Source of the DNA: Spartobacteria bacterium
GTDB taxonomy: Bacteria > Verrucomicrobiota > Verrucomicrobiia > Chthoniobacterales > UBA10450
Length of the DNA: 64,000 bases
Direction: 5' to 3'
Assembly: GCA_003134765.1 (NCBI GenBank)
Contig: PLCM01000015.1
Span: forward strand, 127,421 to 191,420
In this document: positions 24,266-56,742 of the stretch, piece after piece
How the letters are laid out: each line of letters opens with the position of its first letter
Position numbering within the stretch: position 1 is the first letter of the stretch
Notes under the pieces: model-generated
Databases searched by the model: none
Seen by the model: the letters and a program-made list of their open reading frames with translations, nothing else
Told to the model about the DNA's origin: nothing
Translations under genes and position numbers: made by a program

Positions 24266-24325
24266 CAGAGCGGGTCACCATTGGCTGCTCCTTGTCAGCC
24301 GAATCCTCCCCCAATAAACTACCCG

Positions 24326-26029
24326 GTGGAACGGCGTTGGATTGTTGCTCAAACAGGCGCGGAAGCGGCCAGGAACATTCCGTGGGATGAGATCTGCGGC
24401 CTTCCGTGTATTGCCGAGCTCTTGAAGCGGAAAGGATTCACCTGTTCCGATGAAGTCAATGCGTTCCTCGATCCGCGTTTGCGGTCTTTGGGCGATCCAT
24501 TTCTGCTGCCGAACATGGCGGCGGCAGTTGAGCGCGTCCTCCAGGCGATCGATCGCGCCGAACGTATCGTGCTGTTCGGCGACTACGATGTCGACGGTGT
24601 CACCTCGGTGGCGTTGCTCTCCGAGTTGCTGCGAAGCTACGGCGCCACGCCGGAGTTATTCCTGCCCTTGCGGATGGAGGAGGGTTACGGGCTGAGTCCC
24701 GAGAGCGTCGAGCGCTGTTGCGAACAGCATCAGCCCCAGTTGCTGATCGCGGTAGACTGCGGCACGTCGTCGCTCAACGAAATTGCGGCGCTCAAGGAAC
24801 GCGGCATCGATGTCATCGTTCTCGATCATCACGAGCCGAAGTCCGCCCTGCCGGATTGTGTGGCGGTGGTGAACCCGAAAGCGGAAACGGACTGTCCGTT
24901 CGACTATCTTTGCAGTGTCGGAATTGTCTTCAAGCTCTGCCACGCGTTGCTGAAGACGCGCCCGGCCCCCGGCTTTGACCTGAAGGCAAATCTCGATTTG
25001 GTCGCGCTCGGAACCGTGGCCGACATTGTGCCTTTGGAAAAAGAGAATCGCATTCTTGTCCAGCGGGGCATGCGAGCATTGGGCGCTTCGAAGCGGCCGG
25101 GCCTGCGGAAGTTGATGGAGGTAGCCGCGGTTCGGTCCCCGATCGCTGCCCAGGACATTGGGTTTCGTCTGGGGCCGCGTCTCAATGCGGCGGGGCGACT
25201 GGCCACGGCAGAGAAAGCATTACGGCTCCTGCTCACCGGGGATGAAAACGAAGCCGAAGAGCTGGCCGCGCTGCTTGATGCGCAAAACCGCGACCGACAG
25301 GCGGTCGAGCGAAAGATTTGTGACGAAGCCGAACGCACCCTGGAAAAAGATTTCGACCCCGTCCGTGACGCGGCGATCGTGCTCGGGTCGCGCGACTGGC
25401 ATCCGGGCGTGCTTGGCATCGTCGCCTCACGGCTCGCGCGAAAATATCATCGACCCACGATCCTGGTAGGCTTTGATTCCTCCGGGCTCGGAAGGGGGAG
25501 CGGTCGGAGCATCGCGGGCCTTTCTCTTGTCGAAGCTCTCGGCCATTGCGCCGCTTATCTTGAAAAATTTGGTGGCCACGAAATGGCAGCTGGCCTGGCC
25601 ATTCGCGAGAAAAATTTCACAGGATTCGCGGACGCGTTTCGACAAGCGTCGCGCGAGCGCCTGTCGGCTGAAGATCTGCAGCCGCGATTGCACCTCGACC
25701 ATGAGCTCACCTTTTCGCAGCTCAACGGCGACCTGCTCCGCTGGCACCAGGCACTCGAACCTTTCGGCAACGGCAATCTCCAGCCAATGTTTTTTGCCCG
25801 CGCCGTGGAACCGGCGGTCGAGCCCCAGGTCCTGAAGGAAAAGCATCTCGCCTTGCGCTTGCGCCAGCAGAGCCAGTTTCGGCGGGCAATCTTCTTTGAT
25901 GGCGCCCTGACGCCCCTGCCAAGGCCGCCATGGGACATCGCATTTCGCGTAAACGCGGATGAATACGAGGGCGAAACGCGGCTCCAAATTCAAATCGAAG
26001 CGCTGCGCGCTACAGTCCCCGTTGAATGA
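24326..26029 (+). CDS. recJ: Single-stranded-DNA-specific exonuclease RecJ
   Basis: RecJ is the 5'-3' ssDNA exonuclease of RecFOR recombination and repair. From the GTG at 24326 it is 567 residues. DHH-family motifs are present: VLFGDYDVDGVTS, AVDCGTSS, VLDHHEPKS and GTVADIVPL. The DHHA1 domain GGHEMAAGL is near residue 420. The frame is open upstream to a TTG at 24281 with no extra family sequence. Its stop overlaps the recG start (TGATTG/ATGA), so the two repair genes are coupled. Confidence 0.95.
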   Translation: MERRWIVAQTGAEAARNIPWDEICGLPCIAELLKRKGFTCSDEVNAFLDPRLRSLGDPFLLPNMAAAVERVLQAIDRAERIVLFGDYDVDGVTSVALLSELLRSYGATPELFLPLRMEEGYGLSPESVERCCEQHQPQLLIAVDCGTSSLNEIAALKERGIDVIVLDHHEPKSALPDCVAVVNPKAETDCPFDYLCSVGIVFKLCHALLKTRPAPGFDLKANLDLVALGTVADIVPLEKENRILVQRGMRALGASKRPGLRKLMEVAAVRSPIAAQDIGFRLGPRLNAAGRLATAEKALRLLLTGDENEAEELAALLDAQNRDRQAVERKICDEAERTLEKDFDPVRDAAIVLGSRDWHPGVLGIVASRLARKYHRPTILVGFDSSGLGRGSGRSIAGLSLVEALGHCAAYLEKFGGHEMAAGLAIREKNFTGFADAFRQASRERLSAEDLQPRLHLDHELTFSQLNGDLLRWHQALEPFGNGNLQPMFFARAVEPAVEPQVLKEKHLALRLRQQSQFRRAIFFDGALTPLPRPPWDIAFRVNADEYEGETRLQIQIEALRATVPVE

Positions 26030-28728
26030 TTGAGTACTCGCAACCGCTCAGCGAGTTGGAATGGATCCCGCGGCCGAAATTGACCGCGCTCCGGCGGCTC
26101 GAGATCGAAACCGTCGAAGATCTTCTGACCCACTATCCGCGGCGCTATGAGGACCGGACCCAGTTTGCGGCGTTTCCCCGCGAGGAAAGCGAAACGCCAG
26201 TTTGTGTTTGTGGTGAGGTCGTAAAGACCCGGATTGTTCGTTTCGGAGGATGGAAAAAGATCTTCGAAGCGACTTTGGAGGAAGCGAATGCGAACGCGCT
26301 CAGTCAGCCAATTGTGCTACGCTGGTTCAATCTTCATTACGTCCAGAAGATGATCGCCACCGGACAGCGCGTGGTCGTTTTTGGAAAACCGCGTCTGCGC
26401 GGGAAGCGGCTCTGCATGGAGCATCCGGAATTTGAGGTAATCGAGAACGACGAGGAGATGTCGGTCCATTTTCGTCGCATCACTCCGATTTACCCGGCCA
26501 CCGAAGGACTTTCGCAGCGCGTTTTTCGCGGAATGATTTTCCAGGTGCTGGAGAACCTCGGGGCGGGATCCGTCCCAACCCTGTTGCCGAAAGGCGTGAA
26601 TCTCGGAACACGGGAACACGCCCTGCACGAGATCCATTTTCCGACAACGACCGGCCAATGCGAGGCCGCGCGCAAGCATCTCGTCTTCGCGGAGTTCTTT
26701 GCGATGCAGTTAGTGATTGGATCGCGGCGAGCGGAAGCCACGTCGCGAACTGGCCAGGCGCATTCCGCGGCGGGCGAGTTGCTGGAGAGATTCCTGCGCG
26801 GATTACCGTTCGATCTGACTCCCGCCCAGGAGCGGGTCATCGAAGAATTGCGACGGGACCTCGCCTCCCGTCACCCGATGAATCGGCTGCTCCAGGGCGA
26901 TGTGGGCTCGGGGAAAACCGTGGTGGCGATTGCCGCCATGCTGCTCGTGGTTGAATCCGGTTCTCAGGCGGCCCTCATGGCGCCGACGCAAATTCTCGCC
27001 GAACAACATTATGCCGTCCTCTGTCGGTGGCTCGAGCCGCTGGGAGTGCGGCTGGCGTTGCGGACCGGCACGCGGCAGGAGGAAACGCTGCCGCTCTTCG
27101 CTCCGGGTCGAAAACAAACGCTGGGGAGCGCAGGCTGCCAGCCTGCCGTGTCCGGCAGCTTGCCGGACACACCTTCGGGAGTTAGCGAAGCTCGCTATCA
27201 CCGTCGGCGCCTCCCCCATTTTGACCGCCCGTGGGCAAAGTACATGATCACGATGTCCACGCGAAACCACCGGGTCCTAACCACTAGATCTCGCGACGCA
27301 GTCCTCGAATCTATTCTTCGTTGGAGGAATCATCGTTACGGACTCTATGCGGCGTGCGTGATGCCGGATCATGCGCATATGCTGATCGAACCCATGGTTG
27401 AGCGGGAAGGCGACGAGGGAAGTGCGGTGTTCTTTTCGCTGTCGAAGATTCTGCATACCATCAAATCCTTCACGGCGAATCGAGTGAACAAGTTCGAGAA
27501 GACCACGGGGGCCGTCTGGGAGACAGAATCTTTCGATCGGCTGATTGGGTCCGAGAGCGATCTGCAGGAAAAATTTCAGTATATCGCGCGCAATCCATGG
27601 GATTCTGGCGCTGTGAATCCGGGGGTAGATTATCCCTGGGTTTGGTGGCCGGAGATCGAGACGGAGGCGCGGCCGTCAAAGAACACGCCGCCGAACTTCG
27701 CGGCAGGCTGCCGCGAAGAGCAGGCTGCCAGCCTGCGATCCCCAGCGAAGAGCGATGCTCCGCACATCATCGTGGGGACGCATGCGCTGCTTTACGAAGG
27801 GGTATCGTTCGAGAATCTCGGGCTCGCGGTGATTGATGAGCAACACAAGTTTGGGGTCTCGCAAAGGGCGCGCCTCACGGCGCGCGAGCCAGCGCCGGAC
27901 GTCCTCGTCATGACGGCAACGCCGATTCCACGCACGTTGACCATGACTTTCTACGGCGATCTTGATGTGTCGGTGATCGATGAGATGCCGGCGGATCGGG
28001 GCAGGATTGTCACGGCAGTGCGTGAGCGAGGCAAACTTCCGGAAGTGCTCGTGTTTCTGCGCGGACAACTCGAGGCGGGCCGGCAGGCCTATGTCGTTTA
28101 TCCGCTTATCGACGAGAGCGAGAAATTGGACGCAAAAGCGGCCGCTGCGGAGTTCGAGGAATGGGAGGAACGACTGCGCCCGTTTCGTTGCGAGCTGTTA
28201 CATGGAAGGATCGCTGGTCCCGAAAAACAGTCCATCATGGAACGGTTTCGGCGCGGCGAAACGAGCGCCCTCATCAGCACGACTGTGGTCGAGGTGGGCG
28301 TGGACGTGCCGAACGCGACCCTGATGCTGATTGAGAACGCGGAGCGGTTTGGCCTTGCCCAGCTCCATCAATTGCGCGGCCGGATCGGACGGGGGAGCCA
28401 CAAATCGTATTGCGTCCTCCTCAGCGATGAGAAAGAACCTTGGACGGTCGCGAAACTGGCCGTCCTGGAAAAGACCAGCGACGGATTTGCGGTGGCGGAA
28501 GCGGACTGGGAGATGCGCGGCCCTGGGGATCTGCTCGGCACCGCGCAGAGCGGTCTGCCGGCCTTAAAGCTGGGTGATTTGAAAAAGGACGCCGATCTGA
28601 TGCGCCAGGCGCGCGGGGCTGCTACCTCGATTCTGGCCATCGATCCCGGGCTCGAATCGAAGGAAAATCAACAATTTCGGCGATTGATTGTCGAAGAACA
28701 GGGACGAACCTTCTCGAACGTTAGCTGA
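26026..28728 (+). CDS. recG: ATP-dependent DNA helicase RecG with in-frame RAYT insertion
   Basis: RecG regresses stalled forks and migrates Holliday junctions. The wedge/OB domain fills the first ~250 residues. Helicase motif I is GDVGSGKT (291-298), motif Ia is LMAPTQILAEQHY, motif II is DEQH (604-607), then VMTATPIPRT, VVEVGVDVPNA and QLRGRIGRG. The frame is 900 residues, against about 690-700 for the family. The excess (about residues 365-575) is a REP-associated transposase element inserted between the LALRTGTRQEE segment and HIIVGTHALL. Both junctions keep the frame open. Whether the helicase still works is unknown. Confidence 0.93.
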   Translation: MIEYSQPLSELEWIPRPKLTALRRLEIETVEDLLTHYPRRYEDRTQFAAFPREESETPVCVCGEVVKTRIVRFGGWKKIFEATLEEANANALSQPIVLRWFNLHYVQKMIATGQRVVVFGKPRLRGKRLCMEHPEFEVIENDEEMSVHFRRITPIYPATEGLSQRVFRGMIFQVLENLGAGSVPTLLPKGVNLGTREHALHEIHFPTTTGQCEAARKHLVFAEFFAMQLVIGSRRAEATSRTGQAHSAAGELLERFLRGLPFDLTPAQERVIEELRRDLASRHPMNRLLQGDVGSGKTVVAIAAMLLVVESGSQAALMAPTQILAEQHYAVLCRWLEPLGVRLALRTGTRQEETLPLFAPGRKQTLGSAGCQPAVSGSLPDTPSGVSEARYHRRRLPHFDRPWAKYMITMSTRNHRVLTTRSRDAVLESILRWRNHRYGLYAACVMPDHAHMLIEPMVEREGDEGSAVFFSLSKILHTIKSFTANRVNKFEKTTGAVWETESFDRLIGSESDLQEKFQYIARNPWDSGAVNPGVDYPWVWWPEIETEARPSKNTPPNFAAGCREEQAASLRSPAKSDAPHIIVGTHALLYEGVSFENLGLAVIDEQHKFGVSQRARLTAREPAPDVLVMTATPIPRTLTMTFYGDLDVSVIDEMPADRGRIVTAVRERGKLPEVLVFLRGQLEAGRQAYVVYPLIDESEKLDAKAAAAEFEEWEERLRPFRCELLHGRIAGPEKQSIMERFRRGETSALISTTVVEVGVDVPNATLMLIENAERFGLAQLHQLRGRIGRGSHKSYCVLLSDEKEPWTVAKLAVLEKTSDGFAVAEADWEMRGPGDLLGTAQSGLPALKLGDLKKDADLMRQARGAATSILAIDPGLESKENQQFRRLIVEEQGRTFSNVS
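27119..27170. repeat. Left REP pair of the RAYT element
   Basis: GGGGAG leads into a hairpin GCAGGCT-GCC-AGCCTGC (27130-27146). A second hairpin follows with a perfect 10-base stem, GTGTCCGGCA and TGCCGGACAC, around GCT (27148-27170). GGAG/GTAG-type feet next to REP hairpins are a known RAYT recognition feature. Confidence 0.8.
27696..27747. repeat. Right REP pair of the RAYT element
   Basis: The order mirrors the left end. First comes a perfect 10-base stem CTTCGCGGCA/TGCCGCGAAG around GGC (27696-27718), then GCAGGCT-GCC-AGCCTGC (27720-27736) followed by GATCCCCAGCG, the inverted counterpart of CGCTGGGGAGC on the left. Confidence 0.8.
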
Positions 28729-30233
28729 TGAAAAATCTGATCAAATTCCTCTTCTTTGTCTTGCTGGTGAGTGCCGGCATTTCGGCGCTTTACGACTACC
28801 GGCTCAAGACCGGCGGTCTCAATTTTCTCGCGGTCACATCCGAGAAATATTCCCTGGCCACAAACCCCACCGTGGATCCCAAGGACGTCGCGGGGCTGGA
28901 GAGTCTCAACCGCGAGCGACGGGCGCTGGTCAGCTCCGTCATCCCATCGGTTGTCAGCATCAAGACTTCGAAGAAGGTGCCCGTCCGGCGGCAATATCAG
29001 CTCGATCCCTCGGATTTTTTTAATCGCAATCCGCGCCAATTCCGCAACCCGAACGAGGAAGCAATGGTGCAAAACTCTCTCGGCTCGGGCGTGGTCGTGA
29101 CCTCAGAGGGCCACATCATCACGAACAATCACGTGGTGGACCAGGTGGATGAGATCGAGGTCCAGTTGAGCGATGGACGAACGAAAAAGGCCCGGCTGGT
29201 GGGAGCCGACGCGGTGGTCGATTTGGCGGTGCTGAAAGTGGACGAAGCGGGTCTCAAGCCGCTGAAGTTCGGCGACTCCGACGCCGTCCAAGCGGGAGAT
29301 TTCGTGGTCGCGATCGGAAATCCGTTCGGCTTCGAGGAGACAGTAACGGATGGAATCATCAGCTCGAAAGGCCGGCCAAATCGCGTGGATGGTTTCGGCG
29401 ATTACCTGCAGACCAACGCGGCCATCAATCCCGGGAACAGCGGCGGGCCGCTGGTGAATTTGCGGGGCGAGATCATCGGCATCAACACCGCGATCATTTC
29501 GCGCAGCGGCGGATCACAGGGAATCGGGTTCGCGATTCCGTCGAACTCGGTGAAGACGGCCCTGGAGAGCTTGCTTAAGAATGGCCGCATTATTCGCGGA
29601 TATCTCGGCATCCAGGCGCGCCCGACTACTCAGGGAGTGGCCGAGACAGATGGGGTGATCGTCGATGACGTGATCCCGAACTCGCCCGCGTCGGATGCAA
29701 AATTGAAGCGGGACGACGTGATCAAAAAATTTAACGGACACACGGTGCGAAACATCGCGGAATTGCGCAGCCTGGTCTCGCAAGTAGAGCTGAACAAAAA
29801 GGTGGACCTGGAAGTGATCCGAAGCGGAAACACACTCAATGTCACTGCGGAGATCAAGGAACAACCGGCGGATTATCTGACCTCGCGGAGCAATCCTCTC
29901 GAGCCTCAGACGCCGCAGCAACCCGATGACCAGCAGCAGGACGAACCGGACGAAGCGAACGCGCTGGCCTCGGTGCAAGTGGCAGAGCTTACGCCAGACG
30001 TTGTGAAGCGACTCGACCTCCCAACCCGAATTCGGGGCGTTCTCGTGGCGAAAATTGACGGGGAAGCAGGTGAATTGCGCGCTGGCGACGTGATTGAGGA
30101 AGTGAACCAGCAACCGGTGAACTCCGTGTCGGATTACAAGAAAGTCGTTTCTTCGCTCGATCCGAACGGTACCCAGGTGCTTTCGGTCTGCCGGCATCGC
30201 ACGCGATCCTTCGTCGTTTTGCGGCCTCGCTGA
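28728..30233 (+). CDS. HtrA/DegP-like periplasmic serine protease
   Basis: This is a trypsin-fold protease and chaperone for misfolded envelope proteins. An N-terminal hydrophobic segment (FLFFVLLVSAGISAL) works as signal or anchor. The triad is His135 (TNNHVVD), Asp165 (VVDLAVLKV) and Ser238 (NPGNSGGPL). PDZ1 follows (GYLGIQARP) and PDZ2 is at the C-terminus (RIRGVLVAKI). A Gln/Asp-rich linker joins them. Length is 501 residues. The ATG overlaps the recG stop (TGATG). Confidence 0.93.
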   Translation: MKNLIKFLFFVLLVSAGISALYDYRLKTGGLNFLAVTSEKYSLATNPTVDPKDVAGLESLNRERRALVSSVIPSVVSIKTSKKVPVRRQYQLDPSDFFNRNPRQFRNPNEEAMVQNSLGSGVVVTSEGHIITNNHVVDQVDEIEVQLSDGRTKKARLVGADAVVDLAVLKVDEAGLKPLKFGDSDAVQAGDFVVAIGNPFGFEETVTDGIISSKGRPNRVDGFGDYLQTNAAINPGNSGGPLVNLRGEIIGINTAIISRSGGSQGIGFAIPSNSVKTALESLLKNGRIIRGYLGIQARPTTQGVAETDGVIVDDVIPNSPASDAKLKRDDVIKKFNGHTVRNIAELRSLVSQVELNKKVDLEVIRSGNTLNVTAEIKEQPADYLTSRSNPLEPQTPQQPDDQQQDEPDEANALASVQVAELTPDVVKRLDLPTRIRGVLVAKIDGEAGELRAGDVIEEVNQQPVNSVSDYKKVVSSLDPNGTQVLSVCRHRTRSFVVLRPR

Positions 30234-54350: not shown

Positions 54351-54425
54351 GATGAGGGATGAAGGATGAGGGATGAACATTTGAATTGTTCGTTTTTTCA
54401 TCCCTTAGCCTTCATCGTTCATCTT
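54351..54425. repeat. Period-7 inverted array (GATGAGG type)
   Basis: Left: GATGAGG, GATGAAG, GATGAGG, GATGAAC (54351-54378). Right, in strict phase: TCATCCC, TTAGCCT, TCATCGT, TCATCTT (54398-54425). The arms pair around a 19-base AT-rich loop. It lies between the ychF start and the tRNA. Confidence 0.9.
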
Positions 54426-54431
54426 TTCTTA

Positions 54432-54505
54432 TCGGGCCGCCGGGATTCGAACCCGGGACCTCTTGAACCCCATTCAAGCGCACTACCAAGCTGTGCTACG
54501 GCCCG
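54432..54505 (-). tRNA. tRNA-Pro (anticodon GGG)
   Basis: Reading the minus strand, the acceptor CGGGCCG pairs with CGGCCCG, leaving discriminator A at 54432. The D arm contains AGCACAGCTTGGTAGTGC. The anticodon stem CTTGA/TCAAG closes the loop ATGGGGT, giving GGG. The T arm is CCGGG-TTCGAATCCCGG. CCA is not encoded. Length is 74 bases. Confidence 0.95.
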
Positions 54506-54587
54506 ATTTAGAGGCGAACTATTGACCAATTGCGGAGAAATGGCGAGTCGCAAACCTGCGGAACGCGACCTGTCGCCGCGGCGACTG

Positions 54588-54612
54588 CACTACCAAGCTG
54601 TGCTACGGCCCG
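54588..54612 (-). pseudogene. Duplicate of the tRNA-Pro 5' half
   Basis: The 25 bases match 54481-54505 exactly. That is the acceptor strand and D arm of tRNA-Pro. The copy begins 107 bases further on, in the same orientation. The anticodon and T arms are absent. Confidence 0.8.
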
Positions 54613-54666
54613 CTGAATCGTCCACTATTCACTTTCGAGCCGGGCAATGCCAACGAACTTTTCCGG

Positions 54667-54754
54667 GTCATCCCGAGCGAAGTCGAGGGATCCCGCGGCG
54701 CCAGCTTTACGGTTCCAACACGGGATCCTTCGACTTCGCTTCGCTCTGGATGAC
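54667..54754. repeat. Dispersed inverted repeat, copy 3 of 3
   Basis: GTCATCCCGAGCGAAGTCGA opens and TCGCTCTGGATGAC closes the element, with GGGATCCC and GGGATCCTTCGACTTCGCT inside. It shares its core with 1590-1683 and 45731-45824. It lies directly upstream of the aldo/keto reductase. Confidence 0.85.
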
Positions 54755-54791
54755 GAGGTGGTCCGCCGCGAATGAGATGGTAGCGTTCCCC

Positions 54792-55754
54792 ATGAAATAT
54801 CGCCGACTGGGGAAATCGGGTTTGCAGGTGAGCGAGCTTTCCTTTGGCGCCTGGGTCACGTTTGCGCAACAAATCACCGAAAAGACCGCCGAGAAATTAA
54901 TGACGATCGCGTACGATGCGGGCGTCAATTTTTTCGATAACGCGGAGGCGTATGCGGACGGCAAGGCCGAGATCGTCATGGGCCGAATTCTAAAACGAAG
55001 AGGCTGGGGGAGGGACAGCTTTCTTGTTTCAAGCAAAGTGTTTTGGGGCGGCGATCTCCCGAACCAGGAGGGGCTCAGCCGCAAGCACGTGATCGAAGCG
55101 TGTCACGCGGCGCTGCGCCGGTTGCGCGTGGATTACCTCGATCTCTATTTTTGTCATCGGCCCGATCCAAACACGCCGATCGCGGAAACCGTCCGCGCCA
55201 TGAGCGACCTGATCGCGCAAGGCAAGGTCCTCTACTGGGGCACATCCGAATGGAGCGCGGCGGAAATCAGCGAGGCCCATCGCGTCGCGCGCGAGCTGCT
55301 GCTCGTGCCGCCGACCATGGAGCAGCCGCAGTACAACATGTTTCACCGGGAGAAGGTCGAAAAGGAATTTGCGCCGCTCTACGATTCGATCGGTCTTGGC
55401 CTGACGACGTGGTCGCCGCTCGCTTCCGGTTTGTTGACGGGAAAATACAACGAAGGCGACCCTGGTGGAACGCGGATATCGTTGAAAAATTACGAATGGT
55501 TGCGGGAGCAGTTTGAGACCGCCGAGGCGCGGAAGCGGCTGACCAAAGTGAAAAAGCTGGCGGCGGTCGCCAGCGATCTCGAAACGACGTTGCCGCAGCT
55601 CGGGCTCGCCTGGTGCTTGAAAAACCCGCGCGTCAGCTCGGTAATCACCGGTGCCTCCAAACCAAAGCAGGTGAATGAAAACATGAAGGCTTGCGAGCTG
55701 GCGGACCGACTGACCGAAGAGGTGATGGCGCGTATCGAAGCGATTCTTGGGTAG
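54792..55754 (+). CDS. Aldo/keto reductase (Kv-beta/YghZ-like subfamily)
   Basis: This is a TIM-barrel NADPH oxidoreductase of 320 residues from ATG 54792 ([20 protein letters not shown]). Expected residues are Asp and Tyr in [15 protein letters not shown], Lys in VSSKVFWGG and His in [11 protein letters not shown]. The cofactor region is [14 protein letters not shown]. The substrate is unknown. An in-frame ATG at 54777 is possible. The frame stays open far upstream through the tRNA, which is an artefact. The TAG stop forms part of a GTAG repeat foot. Confidence 0.92.
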
Positions 55755-55873
55755 CGCGCGCGTCTCGCCGTCGCGGACTTTCCACTGGGTGTTGATCGCA
55801 AGGAAATCGAACGCGCAATGAAAAGCTTGTTGTGGCGAGACACCGCAACCAACGCGCGAGACGCGCGCGCTAC
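55751..55873. repeat. GTAG...CTAC inverted element providing stop codons for both flanking genes
   Basis: GTAGCGCGCGCGTCTCGC at 55751-55768 is inverted perfectly as GCGAGACGCGCGCGCTAC ending at 55873. GTAG contains the TAG stop of the aldo/keto reductase. On the other strand, CTAC contains the TAG stop of the deacetylase. It is 123 bases long between convergent genes. Confidence 0.85.
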
Positions 55874-56742
55874 GCTGCACCGGTCCACGCGCTCAAGAAC
55901 GCGTCGATGAGGCCTGGCAGCTCGTCGCTGTAGCCACCTTCGAGGATCGCGCCGGACGGAATATTTGTCTCGCGAAGCCATGTCCCGAACGTGGCGAAGT
56001 CCTCCAATTCGAGAGTCATCTCCGTGATCGGATCGCCGGCATAGGCATCGAACCCTGCGGAGACCAGGAGAAGATCCGGCTTGAACGCGACCAGATGATC
56101 CAGCGCCCGCCGGACTTCGTCGACATGGTCTACTCGCGGCGTGAACGGCGCGACCGGGAAATTATGAACATTGCCAAACGACCGCGTCCCAGTGCCGGGA
56201 TAACCAGGGAATTGATGGATCGAGGCGAACGCGATCCGCGGAATGCCAGCCACGATATCCTCGGTGCCGTTGCCGTGGTGCGCGTCGAAATCCCAGAGCG
56301 CAACGCGCTCGGCGCCATTCTCCAACGCGTCCAGCGCGGCCACCGCGATGTTGCTGAAATAACAAAATCCCATCGCGCGTTCCCGCGTCGCGTGGTGGCC
56401 CGGCGGTCGCATAAGGCTAAATGACCGGTTTCCCTGGAGCGCTTCATGGGCGACATCAATCGCGGCGCCGACCGCGCGCAAGGCATGCTCGTAGATTCCC
56501 GGGTACGCAGGCGTGTCGGCATCGAAATCGCGCGACGAACCTTGAATGCGCTCCACGTGCTCGCGCGAATGCGCCCGCCAAAGCGCCGCTTGAGCCGCCG
56601 AAATCGGTTCACGCCATCCCCAATCAGGATGGCGTGCTTTCAGCAACGGAACCGCAGGCATGATTCGTGCCGGCCGCTCCGGGTGACCGGGCATGGAATA
56701 GTCGAGGCAACGCGGATCGTGAAAAATAATCACAAGGCTCAA
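55870..56742 (-). CDS. Histone-deacetylase-family protein
   Basis: These are zinc-dependent deacetylases; bacterial members act on acetylpolyamines or acetyl-lysine. The 290-residue product has PGHPERPARI, the paired His116/His117 (RPPGHHATRERAMGFCYF), the zinc ligands Asp151/Asp153/His155 region (LWDFDAHHGNGTEDI) and the catalytic Tyr in ILEGGYSDELPG. The frame opens at a TTG (56742); GTG a few codons in is possible. It is convergent with the aldo/keto reductase. Confidence 0.93.
   Translation of the reverse strand: MSLVIIFHDPRCLDYSMPGHPERPARIMPAVPLLKARHPDWGWREPISAAQAALWRAHSREHVERIQGSSRDFDADTPAYPGIYEHALRAVGAAIDVAHEALQGNRSFSLMRPPGHHATRERAMGFCYFSNIAVAALDALENGAERVALWDFDAHHGNGTEDIVAGIPRIAFASIHQFPGYPGTGTRSFGNVHNFPVAPFTPRVDHVDEVRRALDHLVAFKPDLLLVSAGFDAYAGDPITEMTLELEDFATFGTWLRETNIPSGAILEGGYSDELPGLIDAFLSAWTGAA

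Follow-up and report, generated by a model that had tools for sequence, protein, structure and literature searches.

The recG gene in a 64,000-nucleotide stretch of DNA from a Spartobacteria bacterium (contig PLCM01000015.1; the whole stretch is hereafter called the window) carries within its reading frame an insert that, judged by its sequence, is a REPtron: an IS200/IS605-related HUH tyrosine transposase, here a repetitive extragenic palindrome (REP)-associated tyrosine transposase (RAYT), located between two inverted REPs, with the frame open from REP to REP. As far as sequence can tell, such in-frame hosting of a REPtron is real, recurrent among relatives and apparently non-disruptive. We consider it probable that the insert represents a mobile REPtron, translatable from end to end, that is hosted as an unspliced domain in conserved proteins, and a long translated fusion protein is likely to be made. 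The features of the locus are as follows.

26026..28728, + strand: fused RecG-RAYT-RecG open reading frame (ORF) of 900 residues (open frame; Pfam and NCBIfam)
26026..27099, + strand: RecG N-terminal part, wedge and helicase domain 1, to just past motif Ia (Pfam; alignment to 1gm5 stops at query residue 349)
27121..27170, + strand: 5' REP unit, CT-GGGGAGC, core palindrome GCAGGCTGCCAGCCTGC (27130-27146) and second palindrome (27148-27170), translated in frame (sequence, repeat search, core match)
27214..27672, + strand: RAYT domain (HUH-Y1 transposase), residues 397-549 (NCBIfam NF047646; 4er8 profile match; AlphaFold (AF2) model)
27370..27378, + strand: HUH motif codons H449, A450 and H451 (sequence; alignment column counts)
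27580..27582, + strand: codon of the catalytic tyrosine Y519 (sequence; Tyr in 66 of 71 family RAYTs)
27697..27745, + strand: 3' REP unit, inverted, with palindrome TTCGCGGCAGGCTGCCGCGAA, core palindrome 27720-27736 and end CCCCAG (sequence, inverted repeat, core match)
27746..28728, + strand: RecG C-terminal part, motif Ib onward, with motif II (DEQH), helicase domain 2 and domain 3 C (Pfam; alignment to 1gm5 restarts at query residue 569)

The ORF comprises 900 codons without a stop, and Pfam and NCBIfam identify RecG on both sides of a REP-associated tyrosine transposase that sits between motifs Ia and II, just ahead of motif Ib. Pfam recognizes RecG_wedge, DEAD (in two stretches), Helicase_C and RecG_dom3_C, such that the wedge, the two helicase domains and domain 3 are all present, and the motif columns are invariant in the alignment. 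Against Thermotoga maritima RecG (1gm5), the query skips from residue 349 to 569 while the chain moves only from 454 to 462, which leaves some 210 residues extra in the query. Structure comparison of the predicted model returned a fold match to 1gm5 and listed only helicases and their kin, and the AF2 model, which shows the insertion site as a loop, depicts a folded RAYT on disordered tethers with the helicase intact beside it. The initial annotation of this locus had described an in-frame RAYT of about 210 residues between motifs Ia and II of RecG, open and stop-free throughout, with H449, H451 and Y519 in place; all of this is borne out, and the REP palindromes that bound the insert are an addition to it.

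Assignment of the insert to the RAYTs draws on several sequence comparisons. The Pfam family Y1_Tnp matches residues 407-520 with 21 bits, slightly below its gathering score of 23, and NCBIfam REP_Tyr_transpos (NF047646) matches residues 399-538 with an E-value of 1.7e-18 and 66.9 bits, under the curated cut-off of 80, which the RAYT of one relative (L099) exceeds with 85.0 bits. A profile built from 12 relatives matches E. coli TnpA-REP (4er8) at 5.5e-5, and the fold of the RAYT part is assigned from the NCBIfam and 4er8 matches together with the AF2 model. A repeat search delimited the insert ends as inverted REP palindromes (27119-27165 and 27701-27747). Exact matches to the REP core in the window's genome number 30 on the forward and 32 on the reverse strand, versus 0 and 0 for a reversed control, and with up to two mismatches there are 77 + 73 matches, corresponding to about 75 places since the core is nearly self-complementary. 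In the REPs examined individually in this genome (L033-L062), in which the first palindrome is fixed by the search itself, the second hairpin stem varies and is often still self-complementary (31 different sequences, judged by eye). Outside the REP foot, both of the next two bases are pyrimidines, most commonly CT, in 47 of 52 readable 5' ends and in 41 of 46 readable 3' ends; as this pair may belong to the REP itself, we claim no target motif. E. coli TnpA-REP is described as cutting at CT beside a GTAG-tagged hairpin (PMC8266576).

We then followed the recG site through the window's family, which comprises 83 genomes, 77 of them with a recG match, using unselected match sets for both recG and RAYT. 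A first scan of genome contigs (25 loci) placed an insert at the same site in L001-L011 and a short REP-like remnant in L012; the others shown have no insert. Among 70 distinct family recG loci, 34 are filled with a RAYT, 30 are empty, i.e. they hold the uninterrupted allele to which the initial annotation had directed attention, and 6 contain only REP-derived residues in frame (scarred). A single site within a single family can thus be filled, empty, scarred or occupied by another RAYT type. The translated site is in frame and free of stops in 94 of 95 recG loci (duplicates included, restricted to loci with both anchor motifs, so that loci cut by contig ends and missing one anchor are left out); the sole exception, L176, belongs to a 59%-complete draft, has several stops and was dropped afterwards. 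In one close pair (L068 and L158) the recG sequences are 96-100% identical beside the site, yet one is filled and the other empty; as the two also differ in ~30 nucleotides of linker adjoining the cassette, the cassette junction is approximate. Two genomes (G053 and G059) have two recG genes each, one filled and one uninterrupted, on different contigs, and contamination is likely here because the tree puts no distance between the empty copies from G059 and G060.

RecG is one host among many. The RAYT search returned 77 matches in 51 of the 83 family genomes, none with an internal stop (0 of 77). The fetched loci contain 77 RAYT domains once one repeat is removed (L120 was dropped as the same place as L179); they reside in recG (39), metH (15), alaS (6), carB (3), sua5 (3) and thrS (1), and 10 are free-standing, two of which are pieces of one frameshifted copy; host identity was taken from Pfam and NCBIfam on representatives, and unscanned metH, alaS, carB and sua5 copies were assigned by clustering of their flanks with blastp. 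Of the 67 domains located in host frames, 55 are flanked on either side by 100 or more codons of that frame; most of the other hosted copies are truncated where the contig or the stretch read ends, and two (carB L143 and metH L144) are broken. The expectation that RAYTs are normally free-standing genes does not hold for this subfamily here. MetH offers two insertion sites, at the boundary of the homocysteine- and pterin-binding domains and at the boundary of the B12-binding and activation domains, and the MetH of L093 carries RAYTs at both. Cassettes were also found between operon genes. AlaS is encoded in 70 of the 83 family genomes, and in the window's genome alaS is without RAYT (963-residue frame). 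Inserts are also stacked in two further loci, L126 with repeated REP-coded stretches around one RAYT and L215 with two RAYTs in a single frame of 717 residues. By eye, the free-standing RAYTs of L125, L129, L131, L132, L133 and L145 directly precede a gene with a stop/start overlap of the ATGA or TGATG type, as if translationally coupled.

Hosting extends beyond the family. Across the order (213 genomes) a RAYT match occurs in 108 genomes, and 17 of the listed rows come from outside the family at E <=1e-58; these were unselected and all fetched, and they lie without exception in frames of 463-1287 codons, with RecG (5), AlaS (8), ThrS (2), PriA (1) and MmeI (1) as Pfam hosts, those in PriA and MmeI being cut by contig ends. 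A second, more distant RAYT group has as hosts LeuS, ValS, CarB, Sua5, a Clp-type AAA protein, HsdR, an Eco57I-type methylase, a menaquinone-biosynthesis protein and a methyltransferase frame, and is perhaps an independent case of the same lifestyle; it was seen in CarB in several family genomes and in LeuS and ValS elsewhere (L200, L203, L210, L216, L218), and further candidate ORFs of ~1325-1388 residues are listed across the order. AlaS hosts recur in L220, from a different family within the same class, and in L222, from the phylum beyond that class; LeuS is the host in L221. The remaining loci of the wider survey (3 + 20 + 10) were picked for long frames and prove that such hosts exist, not how frequent they are. 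Finally, a RAYT match was obtained in 204 of 387 genomes sampled from the phylum; among the matches listed most are, by eye, in frames of free-standing size, which indicates that hosting is a habit of some subfamilies and not of all RAYTs.

Host and RAYT both bear the signature of constraint in their codons. The dN/dS ratio (omega) of recG, estimated over ~200 codons past the site, is 0.065 in filled, 0.065 in empty and 0.055 in scarred loci, and that of RAYT is 0.099 and 0.098 for two types hosted in recG and 0.093 for the N-terminal metH site, values that are rough inasmuch as synonymous divergence is probably saturated in the codon model. RecG evidently tolerates the insert, as the initial annotation had thought possible. 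After RAYT pieces shorter than 130 residues had been dropped (78 found, 71 kept), 63 of the 71 family RAYTs retain both catalytic histidines and the tyrosine, as do 19 of 19 RAYTs from other families. REP numbers are higher where a matching RAYT is present, in a comparison that does not control for shared ancestry and for which the RAYT types (A and B) and genome sets, like those of the type comparison below, were assigned by hand from the RAYT tree: within the window's genus, three genomes with a type A RAYT contain 62, 88 and 44 exact type A cores, as opposed to 1, 0, 1, 7 and 0 in five genomes without.

On the basis of these data, we envisage that one long polypeptide would be produced, in which RecG functions with the RAYT looped out on REP-encoded disordered tethers, while the RAYT domain would act on single-stranded cognate REPs across the genome. 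The cassette may persist by lodging in genes that the cell retains, and could be transferred between species at fixed sites via recombination of the conserved flanks, possibly aided by its own nicking, in a homing-like manner. A bolder version, which we put forward only tentatively, holds that HUH transposons of the window's phylum live unspliced in loops of conserved proteins and home to fixed codon positions of RecG, MetH, AlaS, CarB, LeuS and others, akin to inteins but without splicing, the REP hairpins serving both as transposon ends and as flexible linkers.

Homing-like spread is plausible. RAYT type is distributed independently of the recG tree (15 changes against a shuffled mean of 14.7, a value as low arising in 356 of 500 shuffles; Mantel r 0.06, p 0.12, 33 loci), and RAYT presence on that tree requires 17 changes, at least 12 of them on starred branches. 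Clustering of elements by site is a mark of homing elements, and RAYT trees do group by host gene, with 15 changes versus 31.5 when shuffled (L145 left out), and 17 versus 40.4 in a second tree from which L145, L179 and the Sua5 group were left out; recG itself, however, holds at least two distant RAYT clades.

Several observations weigh against the hosted mobile REPtron, in addition to the saturation noted above. First, the 17 changes in RAYT presence are fewer than in all 500 shuffles (mean 23.7), i.e. presence is clustered and thus partly inherited. RAYT distance also increases with recG distance within type A (r 0.48, 11 loci) and, weakly, within type B (r 0.19, 19 loci), so inheritance accounts for part of the pattern. 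Second, REP numbers do not always follow the RAYT: the window's genome has 34 type B REP matches and no type B RAYT, four g5 genomes without a type A RAYT (G014, G016-G018) have 7-16 type A cores, and two genomes with one (G073 and G078) have 4 and 2. Third, 8 of the 71 family RAYTs have only two of the three catalytic residues, and some hosts are broken: metH L144 stops 15 codons past the RAYT, carB L143 stops inside it, recG L084 has a TAA within the match and the recG frame of L091, twin of L008, ends early. The damage in recG of L084 and L091, both of them filled, lies further along the gene than the site. Lastly, the genomes are mostly multi-contig drafts.

The clustering and the within-type correlations also favor a passive version of the hosted REPtron, in which RAYTs have long been kept for REP upkeep and move with recG alleles by homologous recombination and descent, with no homing of their own. 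Ordinary recombination of conserved genes could also swap inserts, and an allele swap between similar flanks is seen in L070 (type A) and L090 (type B), whose flank blocks are 87-100% identical except for one block at 74%; moreover, RAYTs elsewhere are described as single-copy genes passed on vertically (PMC8049555). Cassettes have, however, reached new sites, in many unrelated host genes and in gaps between operon genes, and presence changes at least 12 times at the single recG site. We regard passive carriage as a real possibility that falls short of being probable.

It is unlikely that RecG and RAYT are made as separate products, be it by splicing of the insert from RNA or protein, by ribosome bypass or from an internal RAYT start. 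An in-frame start codon is found near the RAYT in 43 of 59 hosted copies, but is absent there in 16; it is ATG in 12 and accompanied by a Shine-Dalgarno-like motif in 10, and a start conserved among the 59 was not found. No intein was among the 7 Pfam families (E <=0.01) or the 25 of 34 NCBIfam families shown for the ORF, and no Rfam intron family matched at E <=1 in 26900-27900. Moreover, splicing or bypass would not need the insert to be kept in frame. The sole Rfam match, Ysr141 (26900-27085, minus strand; 31 bits versus a gathering score of 196, E 2e-6), falls within the coding sequence of recG but not within the insert, and it is no intron.

Still less credible is that the RAYT has been domesticated as a working part of RecG, yielding a fork-remodelling helicase with a tethered hairpin nickase. 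Regressed forks do expose single-stranded DNA, the RAYT is under purifying selection and the HUH motif and tyrosine are intact in 33 of 37 recG-hosted RAYTs. Yet related cassettes reside in metabolic enzymes and tRNA synthetases, the site is empty in 30 of the 70 recG loci and scarred in 6, RAYT type shows no dependence on recG phylogeny and host constraint is equal with and without the insert. Fork biology need not be invoked. The fork-specific working fusion advanced in the initial annotation is improbable because cassettes occupy MetH, AlaS, CarB, ThrS, Sua5 and others as well and because so many recG loci lack one; its alternative, a fresh knockout, is excluded since nearly half of the distinct family loci are filled in frame with constraint unchanged. 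Although the genomes are mostly drafts and a few hosts are broken, an assembly chimera or a decaying knockout deserves practically no credence, as the site is common to more than 30 family genomes, the window's genome (G000) has this recG match only and recG omega is unchanged, and relatives rule out both a chimera and a recent knockout.

The hosted REPtron resembles several known systems without coinciding with any of them. Inteins and homing endonucleases are in-frame inserts at fixed sites of conserved proteins, with a nuclease domain and an element phylogeny that follows the site; here no splicing domain was found, the insert apparently stays in the protein and the nuclease is an HUH transposase acting on single-stranded DNA. 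Helicases of the Rep/UvrD/XPD type also have an extra domain between motifs Ia and II, as a fixed ancestral part, whereas the insert described here is gained, lost and exchanged. With REPtrons and RAYTs (TnpA-REP) of the IS200/IS605 superfamily it shares the HUH motif and single tyrosine, scattered matching REPs and the relationship to 4er8, as well as two inverted flanking REPs (PMC2817692) with a GTAG or GGAG foot. It departs from their description as single-copy, vertically inherited genes (PMC8049555) in being an all-coding cassette within host proteins whose type is exchanged at a fixed site; rather than a gene of its own, this RAYT lies inside RecG, its type independent of the recG tree and its presence clustered. 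The nearest precedents are intragenic REPs ("REP-decorated proteins"), most numerous as GTAG repeats in Opitutus terrae, and Rickettsia palindromic elements, i.e. palindromic repeats translated inside conserved genes, including those for DNA repair and tRNA synthetases (PMC3733652). Those elements encode tens of residues and no transposase, and the portions of PMC3733652 consulted make no mention of a RAYT within the frame of a host. In one survey of the superfamily, "unexpectedly long proteins" were discarded, being taken for fusions or errors of annotation (PMC6006769). In keeping with the initial annotation, which knew of no described case, we found in the open-access literature no description of a transposase that resides in frame within housekeeping proteins; what appears to be new, by sequence comparison, is a complete REPtron inside a host frame, as a variant of the REPtron.

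The usual view is that transposons either avoid important genes or destroy them. Here conserved genes apparently offer a refuge to a cassette that can be read throughout and that sits at a place tolerated by the protein, which suggests that mobile DNA may inhabit important genes without destroying them. The finding adds a complete element to the known intragenic REPs and Rickettsia elements, calls into question the view of RAYTs as quiet genes inherited vertically, supplies a natural catalogue of insertion-tolerant sites in enzymes and provides a testable case of possible homing without splicing. For annotators, long RecG, MetH, AlaS, CarB, LeuS or ValS proteins with an internal RAYT are not necessarily annotation errors.

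Within the window, recG overlaps both of its neighbors, by 4 bases upstream (24281-26029) and by 1 base downstream (28728-30233), in an operon-like arrangement with genes that, named by eye, are recJ-like and encode a DegP-like protease, respectively. At 55750-55874, two GTAG-type REPs in inverted orientation, each with 3 mismatches, lie between the ORFs 54366-55754 (+) and 55870-56742 (-), which converge; going by coordinates, each REP provides, with its TAG, the stop codon of the ORF that it meets.
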